Assembly (NCBI RefSeq): GCF_018128925.1 | Contig: NZ_CP067007.1 | Coordinates: 846,164 to 910,163 of the forward strand | Source of the DNA: Nitrosopumilus sp. K4 | GTDB taxonomy: Archaea > Thermoproteota > Nitrososphaeria > Nitrososphaerales > Nitrosopumilaceae | Length of the DNA: 64,000 nucleotides | Reading direction: 5' to 3' | In this document: positions 4,488 through 52,646 of the stretch, piece after piece | How the letters are laid out: the number at the start of each line of letters is the position of its first letter | Numbering within the stretch: position 1 is the first letter of the stretch | Made by a program: the position numbers and the translations under genes | The notes under the pieces: model-generated | What the model was told of the DNA's origin: nothing | Seen by the model: the letters and a program-made list of their open reading frames with translations, nothing else | The model's database searches: none

Positions 4488-5105
4488 ATGAACCATATTC
4501 TAGATTTTGTATTTGCAGTAGTAATAATATCGGCATCAGGAGTGATGGCACCAGGTCCATTATTTGCAGCAAACATTGTCTATGGCACTAAGGAAAGCAC
4601 CAGAGCAGGAATAAAAATGGCCGCAGGGCATACAATTGTTGAGTTCCCCCTAGTAATTCTTTTAGGAATAGGAGTGTTTTCATTAGAAGTTTTTCCAGAG
4701 TTTAGAACAGTTATTTCAATAGTAGGGGCAATTACACTCTTTATTTTCGCAGGAATCCAAATAAAATCATTATTTCAAAAAAGAAAAACATTACAAAATG
4801 ATCAAAAACACGGAGCAGTAATTGCAGGAATTACACTTAGCGCACTGAATCCATTTTTCATAGCATGGTGGTTAAGTGTAGGTTTCAAATTAATTTCAGA
4901 TGCAATGATGATATGGGCATTTGGAGGAATCATAGTATTATTTTTGCTACATATTTGGATGGATTTTGCTTGGTTAGGTTCAGTTGCGTTTTTAGCAAAA
5001 AAAAGTGCAAGAATTTTATCAAACAAAAATTACAAAATCATGATGTTAGGACTAAGCATCAGTCTGATATATTTTGGAATCACATTTCTAAACGACGTGA
5101 TTTAG
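4488..5105 (+). CDS. LysE-family membrane exporter
   Basis: 205 residues with about six hydrophobic segments and the LysE/RhtB N-terminal signature MAPGPLFAANI near residues 20-30. Family members export amino acids or other small solutes; the substrate here is unknown. A conserved-looking ALNPFFIAWWLSVG near residue 125 matches the family's second repeat. It follows the PAC2 gene by 39 bases on the same strand and may be cotranscribed. Its stop codon overlaps the stop region of the convergent small gene by four bases. Confidence 0.85.
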   Translation: MNHILDFVFAVVIISASGVMAPGPLFAANIVYGTKESTRAGIKMAAGHTIVEFPLVILLGIGVFSLEVFPEFRTVISIVGAITLFIFAGIQIKSLFQKRKTLQNDQKHGAVIAGITLSALNPFFIAWWLSVGFKLISDAMMIWAFGGIIVLFLLHIWMDFAWLGSVAFLAKKSARILSNKNYKIMMLGLSISLIYFGITFLNDVI

Positions 5106-5341
5106 CCACAATCTAAAATTTCCATTTGAGGCTCACATTGTTCATTAAACGAATATATTTTTTCAAGTGTTTCTTCACAAAATTCAGGATCTAATGAATT
5201 TTCATAAATGTTCAAATCATTGATGAGCTGAATATGTTTTACACCACATGAATTTGATGAGACGTTAACCAATGTGATAACCGTTGTCGCTACCAAAATA
5301 ACTAAAATTAGATTTCTGATCTTATTTTTTTGTAATATCAA
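5102..5341 (-). CDS. Small membrane-anchored protein of unknown function
   Basis: From TTG 5341 the frame gives 79 residues: a short basic N-terminus (QKNKIRN), one hydrophobic segment (LILVILVATTVITLV), then an outer domain with four cysteines (SCGVKH, PEFCEE, EQCEP, ILDCG). The Cys spacing suggests two disulfides outside the membrane. The frame extends upstream to an ATG at 5413 inside the Alba gene, but the hydrophobic anchor argues for the later start. It overlaps the end of the Alba gene by about 20 bases and may be translationally coupled to it. I do not recognise a family. Confidence 0.55.
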   Translation of the reverse strand: MILQKNKIRNLILVILVATTVITLVNVSSNSCGVKHIQLINDLNIYENSLDPEFCEETLEKIYSFNEQCEPQMEILDCG

Positions 5342-5876
5342 TTTCAATAGTAGAAACGTTACGCTGTTTTCCATCTTGAGAAGTGAGTGAATCCGACGAA
5401 ATCCTAACATCACTAATTACATAGCCAACAGTATCCATTCTTTTTACAATCATTTGAGAAACATCTACTGCTTGTGTGATTCGTTTACCTCTTGCCTTAA
5501 TAGTAACAGTTTCCATATTAGCAAGTTGAGTAAGTGTTGCTGAAACATACGTCATAATTGGTTTAGTGCCTACAAAAATTACATCGCGTTCTTCAGATTT
5601 TGTTTCTTGTTTTTCTTGAGGAGTGTCTAATTGTGGTTCTGGTTCTGGTGCATCTAATTGTGGTTCTGGTTCTGGTGCATCTAATTGTGGTTCTGGTTCT
5701 GGTGCATCTAATTGTGGTTCTGGTTCTGGTGCATCTAATTGTGGTTCTGGTTCTGGTGCATCTAATTGTGGTTCTGGTTCTGGTGCATCTAATTGTGGTT
5801 CTGGTTCTGGTTTTTGTGAATCTTGAAATTCAGACAAAATATCTTCTGCATCTTTGGATTTTTTTGGATCACTCAA
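5322..5876 (-). CDS. Alba-domain nucleic-acid-binding protein with N-terminal acidic repeats
   Basis: 184 residues in two parts. Residues 1 to about 97 are acidic and proline-rich and contain seven copies of the nonapeptide EPEPQLDAP. Residues from about 98 onward are a complete Alba domain (DVIFVGTKPIMTYVSATL, TVTIKARGKRITQAVDVSQ, a dimer helix, and a final strand STIEIDITKK). Alba proteins coat DNA and RNA as dimers, and the GKRI lysine region is the usual nucleic-acid contact and acetylation area. Known Alba proteins are about 90 residues, so the repeat tail doubles the size. The downstream small membrane gene overlaps its 3' end. Confidence 0.88.
   Translation of the reverse strand: MSDPKKSKDAEDILSEFQDSQKPEPEPQLDAPEPEPQLDAPEPEPQLDAPEPEPQLDAPEPEPQLDAPEPEPQLDAPEPEPQLDTPQEKQETKSEERDVIFVGTKPIMTYVSATLTQLANMETVTIKARGKRITQAVDVSQMIVKRMDTVGYVISDVRISSDSLTSQDGKQRNVSTIEIDITKK
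5626..5811 (-). repeat. Perfect 27-bp tandem repeat, seven units, inside the Alba gene
   Basis: Seven head-to-tail 27-bp units, each encoding nine residues (EPEPQLDAP); the last unit differs only at its final codon (Asp-Thr-Pro instead of Asp-Ala-Pro). The DNA units appear identical base for base, implying recent expansion or ongoing homogenisation. Because 27 is a multiple of three, copy-number changes keep the Alba domain in frame. Several frames remain open across the array, which creates false reading frames on the other strand. Confidence 0.95.
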
Positions 5877-5911: not shown

Positions 5912-6157
5912 TTATTTATTTTTAAGGTTCTGTTGTTGGATATAGTCCTCTAAAATTTTTTCAACATCAATATTTTTGGAATTCTTAACCTTATCTACAA
6001 GGTTTTTTTCCTCTATCTCATAGCAGTTCAGTACATCTTGAAAATCTTTGAAAACTAAAAGGATTTTATCTTTGAAAATACAATGATACAGTTTTTCTTT
6101 TTCCATTTGTTCAGGTTTTATGTTAATTCCATCCTCACCTGAAGAAAGTGGCGAATC
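5912..6157 (-). CDS. Hypothetical protein, 81 aa
   Basis: A small Lys/Glu-rich soluble protein starting MDSPLSSGEDGI, with a central KLYHCIFKDKILLVFKDF and a helical C-terminus ending QQQNLKNK. The start is the ATG at 6157 rather than one four codons upstream, because AATATTTAAT at 6181-6190 lies about 28 nt before it. It shares a divergent spacer with the DNA polymerase IV gene. I do not recognise a family or function. Confidence 0.6.
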   Translation of the reverse strand, partial: DSPLSSGEDGINIKPEQMEKEKLYHCIFKDKILLVFKDFQDVLNCYEIEEKNLVDKVKNSKNIDVEKILEDYIQQQNLKNK

Positions 6158-6232
6158 CATAAACAACATAAGAATTGAACAATATTTAATGAATTCAAAA
6201 TATAGTAATAATCAAAAACCATACAAAGATTA

Positions 6233-52310: not shown

Positions 52311-52646
52311 ATGTCTCAAACCCAGTCTGCAGTAACACCAGAGATTTTAGAAGAAATAAAGAGGATTCAAAATGAGATTTCAGAATTAAAAAATCTCAAA
52401 GTGGAGATAGAATCAAAACCAAAGAGAAAGACAGCTGCTAAGAAAAAGACTACAAAGAGAAAGACAGCTGCTAAGAAAAAGACTACAAAGAGAAAGACAG
52501 CTGCTAAGAAAAAGACTACAAAGAGAAAGACAGCTGCTAAGAAAAAGACTACAAAGAGAAAGACAGCTGCTAAGAAAAAGACTACAAAGAGAAAGACAGC
52601 TGCTAAGAAAAAGACTACAAAGAGAAAGACAAGCAGACGTAGATAG
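52311..52646 (+). CDS. Histone H1-like Lys-rich repeat protein
   Basis: 111 residues. Residues 1-37 form a short helical head (TPEILEEIKRIQNEISELKN). Residues 38-103 are six perfect copies of the 11-mer KRKTAAKKKTT, and the end is KRKTSRRR. The composition, Lys/Ala/Thr with spaced Pro, is that of H1 C-terminal tails and bacterial AlgP/Hc1-type DNA-binding proteins, so nonspecific DNA or RNA binding is expected. The head could dimerise. Neighbours give no clue. Function inferred from composition only. Confidence 0.75.
   Translation: MSQTQSAVTPEILEEIKRIQNEISELKNLKVEIESKPKRKTAAKKKTTKRKTAAKKKTTKRKTAAKKKTTKRKTAAKKKTTKRKTAAKKKTTKRKTAAKKKTTKRKTSRRR
52422..52619 (+). repeat. Perfect 33-bp tandem repeat, six units, coding for KRKTAAKKKTT
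   Basis: Six identical 33-bp units in frame, followed by a partial seventh (KRKT). Codon choice is the same in every unit, which means the array expanded recently at DNA level instead of being kept only by protein selection. Copy number is likely to vary between strains. Confidence 0.95.

Follow-up and report, generated by a model that had tools for sequence, protein, structure and literature searches.

The stretch of Nitrosopumilus sp. K4 DNA analyzed here (64,000 nucleotides; hereafter, the window) contains a gene that raises the question of what an acidic, repetitive extension does on Alba, normally a bare basic domain of about 90 residues. The Alba domain of the encoded protein is ordinary. 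The 184-aa protein matches PF01918 in Pfam with 53.7 bits over residues 99-161, against a curated cut-off of 25 bits, and its best match among PDB Alba sequences scores 1.9e-17. Furthermore, Foldseek aligns the AF2 model, in which the domain has pLDDT values mostly between 73 and 85, to Alba structures with an E value of 1.1e-8 and a probability of 1.0. The protein shares its domain sequence, its fold and K17 (the second lysine of the GKKP motif) with archaeal Alba/Sac10b (PF01918; Sso10b, 1h0x; A. fulgidus Alba, 1nfh). It differs from them in the possession of 96 extra N-terminal residues (a short tip followed by an acidic linker of minisatellite origin), in a threonine at the K16 acetylation site, in a methionine at the F60 position and in its overall charge: the full protein has a pI of 4.2, where theirs is about 10, and a charge of -21, compared to a pI of 9.7 for the domain alone, with the tail contributing -25 and the Alba domain about +4. 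The 1.646-Mb single-contig genome encodes four Alba genes, of which only this copy is extended. A sequence-only reading of the window had suggested looking for the tail in other Alba paralogues; none of those in the K4 genome has one, their open frames measuring 109, 104 and 94 codons. The features of the locus are collected in Table 1.

Table 1. Positions within the window of the tailed Alba gene, its parts and its upstream elements.
Feature	Position	Strand	Basis or remark
Complete tailed Alba gene (tip, linker and domain)	5322..5876	(-)	184 aa, TTG start; Pfam and PDB Alba matches
Alba domain, residues 97-184	5322..5588	(-)	GTKP replaces GKKP, hence no K16
Acidic, Pro-rich disordered linker, residues 18-96	5589..5825	(-)	Composition and length survey; unstructured in the model
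Minisatellite encoding PEPEPQLDA units	5626..5811	(-)	27 bp x 6.9, 100% identical (TRF)
N-terminal tip DAEDILSEF, residues 9-17	5826..5852	(-)	pN/pS; 16/20 genera; low-confidence helix 9-15
Possible ribosome-binding site (AAGGA), upstream of the TTG codon	5884..5888	(-)	Predicted from the sequence
TATA-like promoter element across the 85-aa gene's stop codon	5909..5921	(-)	Similar in most orthologues
Gene for a conserved 85-aa protein, syntenic neighbor of the tailed Alba	5912..6169	(-)	35/35 long loci

The compared loci are orthologous because the gene for the 85-aa protein is found in all 35 long loci and because they share their usual neighbors, which include PAC2, LysE and a Y-family polymerase gene. 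Distinct complete orthologues start just before the tip with TTG (45) or ATG (15), and nearly all are preceded by a TATA-like box, with mostly ~41 nt between the upstream stop and the alba start. The upstream 85-aa protein yielded a confident model with no fold match in the PDB, and hence no functional hint. Its C-terminal helix contains DVEKILEDY, which resembles the tip and is the only other sequence within the window to match a loose version of its pattern; we do not claim a motif common to both proteins, since the match is loose across orthologues and the last codons of the gene double as the alba TATA box. In one locus (L185, from genome G018) a single open frame, uninterrupted by a stop codon, spans the 85-aa gene and the tailed Alba gene. 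At the other end of the gene, a small ORF with a hydrophobic segment (window 5102-5413, minus strand) overlaps the alba 3' end; counterparts with 36-56% identity are present in 32 of the 35 loci, and its true start probably lies downstream of the listed GTG.

The sequence-only reading described the extension as an acidic, Pro-rich tail made of seven essentially identical 27-bp units ahead of the Alba domain, each adding a charge of about -3, and expected its length to vary between strains. Analysis of the translated protein bears out this description: seven near-perfect units, in frame, encode six PEPEPQLDA and one PEPEPQLDT, each unit carries E, E and D, and the units match at 100% in TRF. 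Only the word tail is in need of correction, as the repeats do precede the Alba domain but form a linker rather than the end of the protein, with conserved residues 1-17 coming first. An assembly artefact as the source of the array is ruled out by comparable arrays in independent closed single-contig genomes, where they reach ~20 copies of an 18-bp unit, and by the differences in copy number among near relatives with 97-98% identical domain DNA. L050, L038 and L027 carry 1, 3 and 4 copies, respectively, with domain DNA ~97% identical, and the tails of L145 and L149 measure 58 and 87 aa, with domain DNA 98.5% identical. Short-read assemblies break at the linker (36 of 80 fetched contigs start at most 300 nt upstream of the Alba domain, against ~1.5 expected), so many database copies of the tailed Alba are truncated. 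Tails were found almost throughout the family, which disposes of the notion that the orthologues might all be tail-less.

Judging from these orthologues, the sequence of the repeat is swapped wholesale between lineages, a feature not noticed in the earlier reading. Tandem arrays are present in 47 of 61 distinct tails and absent from the remaining 14, and their periods (12, 18, 21, 24, 27, 30, 39, 45, 54, 72 and 99 bp) are multiples of three in 47/47 cases, as expected for any coding repeat. The repeat units are mostly unlike one another, and include PEPEPQL(D/E/S)(A/S), PEPEPT, PEPT, PEPVAE and PEPQTESP. Some lineages have Cys-rich units, as in the very long linkers of L184 (599 aa; HGDGSCCSES, with the GSCCSES unit) and L186 (377 aa; GGSCGCSHDEPSND, with GSCGCSHDEP units), which possibly bind metal. 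Across 60 distinct orthologues, the stretch between tip and domain ranges from 15 to 599 aa (median 75.5) and its net charge from -96 to +1 (median -15.5), with a median composition of 27% D+E and 25% P; in the AF2 model, the K4 linker has no secondary structure. In a few orthologues the linker is short and almost neutral; Nitrosotenuis-type tails are of this kind, and yet they keep the tip.

This range of lengths, the 14 tails devoid of an array and the complete change of unit between lineages are what might be expected if the minisatellite were a selectively neutral by-product of slippage that a disordered region can absorb, with function residing in the tip only, or nowhere in the extension, and the proteomes of Cenarchaeum and Nitrosopumilus are indeed repeat-rich compared to those of other archaea (PMC3836704). 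We nevertheless consider such an origin improbable, given that unrelated arrays converge on an acidic, mostly Pro-rich composition and that most lineages have arrays at the same place.

Comparison of the orthologues further indicates that the tip, which had gone unremarked, and not the repeat, is the most conserved part of the extension. Nearly all Nitrosopumilaceae orthologues present the same layout, consisting of the tip, a hypervariable and usually acidic linker, and Alba, with DAEDILSEF or a close variant sitting 2-9 residues from the start (the tip peptide of the K4 protein reads KKSKDAEDILSEFDSR). Across 62 orthologous sequences, which were recognized partly via a loose tip pattern that biases tip pN slightly down, pN and pS are 0.086 and 0.609 for the tip (ratio 0.14), 0.099 and 0.667 for the Alba domain (ratio 0.15), and 0.59 and 0.549 for the four codons after the tip (ratio 1.07). 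These values place the tip under the same degree of constraint as the folded domain, and indicate no constraint on the codons just after it. Among the complete, intact members of the tailed group that were inspected by eye, all have a tip except those from genus g21. Of 136 near-complete Nitrosopumilaceae genomes, 96, belonging to 16 of the 20 genera, contain a match to a profile of the tip, and with rare exceptions they contain a single one. In the K4 genome, the profile recovers the tailed Alba gene with an E value of 1.5e-9 and finds the tip in no other protein, the next best match having an E value of 0.39. A scan of viral contigs for signs of viral spread returned no relatives. The AF2 model places a helix at residues 9-15 with low confidence (pLDDT below 60), and the tip segment has a higher hydrophobic moment than shuffled sequences (P 0.005).

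The location of the tip, 2-9 residues after a start codon that is commonly TTG, could also point to a role of the N-terminal 17 residues in translation initiation, processing or turnover (for instance, as a degron) instead of docking. We regard this as very unlikely. Selection acts here on amino acids, and the synonymous sites of the tip are as free as those of the domain, which disfavors a role at the RNA level; a degron, in turn, would have no need of the long linker.

The GKKP motif of the Alba domain also distinguishes the tailed proteins. In Sulfolobus Alba, Lys16 of this motif is acetylated and its acetylation reduces DNA binding, although K16 is poorly conserved across Albas in general (PMC11621453). 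The acetylatable lysine is typical of Sulfolobus Alba and optional for the family, and its replacement in the K4 protein (GTKP) does not exclude Alba membership. Among 62 tip-bearing sequences, the K16 equivalent is T in 47, V in 3, N in 3, S in 2, A in 2, and L, I, Q, D and M in one each, compared to a lysine in 42 of 42 sequences with a short, plain N-terminus, paralogues included. The Alba proteins of g21 (L201, L223 and L224) have a glycine at this position, and the remaining entries scored as tip-less (T, S or I at K16) correspond to tailed genes that are frame-broken, incomplete or missed by the pattern. The variety of replacements suggests that the constraint on this residue was released. 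The loss of K16 and the gain of the tail may have been one event on one branch, so their association lacks statistical independence.

A tree of 53 Alba domains, inferred with both FastTree and IQ-TREE, recovers the tailed proteins as one group, sister to the tail-less Alba of genus g15, which we take to be Nitrosotalea-type. The node joining both has a UFBoot value of 91, and the tailed node itself a value of 44 (IQ-TREE). A single origin of the tailed group appears likely. The outgroup families f7 and f2, presumably Nitrososphaera-like and Nitrosocaldus-like, have plain N-termini without the tip or acidic repeats. The g21 proteins, which have an acidic tail with no recognizable tip, are nested inside the tailed group, a pattern that reads as tip loss.

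By analogy, the closest working parallel to this architecture is E. coli SSB, the likeness being in build and not in homology. In E. coli SSB, a disordered linker of 56 residues ends in an acidic tip of nine; the tip binds partners, and tip and DNA compete for the DNA-binding sites (PMC7145534). The tailed Alba has in common with the bacterial SSB C-terminal tail the layout of a nucleic-acid-binding core (in its case, a putative activity), a variable, low-complexity disordered linker and a conserved nine-residue acidic/hydrophobic tip. In contrast, its core is an Alba and not an OB fold, its extension is N-terminal rather than C-terminal, and there is no sequence homology. FtsZ, with a hypervariable disordered linker ending in a conserved C-terminal docking peptide, shares the arrangement of linker and conserved peptide with the tailed Alba, and differs from it in its core, in the terminus involved and in function. 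RGG-extended Alba proteins of eukaryotes share the Alba core and a low-complexity tail, but RGG tails are basic and RNA-binding, whereas the extension described here is acidic, lies at the N-terminus and has a conserved tip at its end.

The combination of a constrained core, an unconstrained acidic linker and a constrained amphipathic tip argues for a docking peptide on a tether. We give an even chance to the proposal that the tailed Alba is a putative partner-recruiting tip on an acidic spacer, borne by an Alba of probably lowered DNA affinity. From this pattern we infer binding of the tip to a partner, a role of the linker as spacer and charge element, and reduced affinity. An Alba paralogue would have been remade into a tip-linker-core protein whose dimer would bind nucleic acid, with each subunit extending an acidic, proline-stiffened disordered linker carrying DAEDILSEF. 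The nine-residue acidic amphipathic tip would dock in a groove of the partner, which would thus be brought to Alba-coated DNA or RNA. The minisatellite would provide a cheap, length-variable source of linker, and its units could turn over freely because mainly spacing, solubility and negative charge would be needed. The negative charge close to the DNA face and the replacement of K16 would probably combine to make this protein a weaker or more exchangeable binder than an ordinary Alba. Recruitment through a specific tip fits the pattern of selection better than a nonspecific attraction of basic proteins to the repeats, one of the functions put forward in the sequence-only reading. Competition with DNA for the binding face, another of them, is in keeping with the absence of K16 and may occur as an additional effect; the third was that the tail could space Alba filaments.

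Such competition might also operate in cis and require no partner, if the acidic linker and the tip folded onto the basic face of Alba, within their own dimer or on a neighboring one, competed with DNA and limited filament growth or bridging. This form of autoinhibition would be consistent with the opposite charges of tail and domain, with the absence of K16, which lies beside the DNA face, from all tailed proteins, and with the competition between the SSB tip and DNA for the SSB core (PMC7145534). It seems to us rather doubtful, since charge alone would be enough for it, with no call for nine fixed residues that include the hydrophobic A, I, L and F; moreover, it is the sequence of the tip that is kept and not that of the charged repeats, and the short, nearly neutral Nitrosotenuis-type tails retain the tip. 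The recruitment of a partner by the tip has points counted against it as well: the tip could fold back on Alba in cis or could be a processing or degradation signal, and the proposal is weakened by the pLDDT below 60 of the helix, by the tip-less g21 and by the few near-neutral short linkers. A broader version, which we put forward only tentatively, would make the tailed Alba an SSB-like hub evolved from a chromatin protein in ammonia-oxidizing archaea. Its tip would dock one or more DNA- or RNA-processing factors, the reach of its linker would be quickly adjustable, and the gain of the tip and the loss of K16, as a switch away from acetylation control, would have come together after the Nitrosotalea split.

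Among the papers searched, none describes the Alba tail or tip. The main text of a 2024 Alba survey names no Thaumarchaeota or Nitroso- genera, and the passage of the N. limnia genome paper that lists two Alba genes makes no remark on a tail. The tip-linker extension appears to be a new addition to an otherwise known domain. Nitrosopumilaceae are among the most abundant ocean archaea. Histone makes up less than 0.06% of the N. maritimus proteome (PMC7613761), and the chromatin of the family may therefore depend more on Alba-type proteins. The nine near-invariant residues offer a direct bait for finding the partner of this Alba, and the fast-changing linker between two constrained parts can serve as a natural experiment on the properties that a disordered linker has to keep.

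Elsewhere in the window, positions 52311-52646 of the plus strand encode a 111-aa protein whose basic tail, (KRKTAAKKKTT)n, is similar to that of histone H1 and stems from another perfect minisatellite (33 bp x 6.4 in TRF). Similar Lys-rich proteins were found in 14 of the 61 family genomes searched and are absent from the three other genomes of its genus. By composition alone, this tail is the charge-opposite counterpart of the Alba tail.
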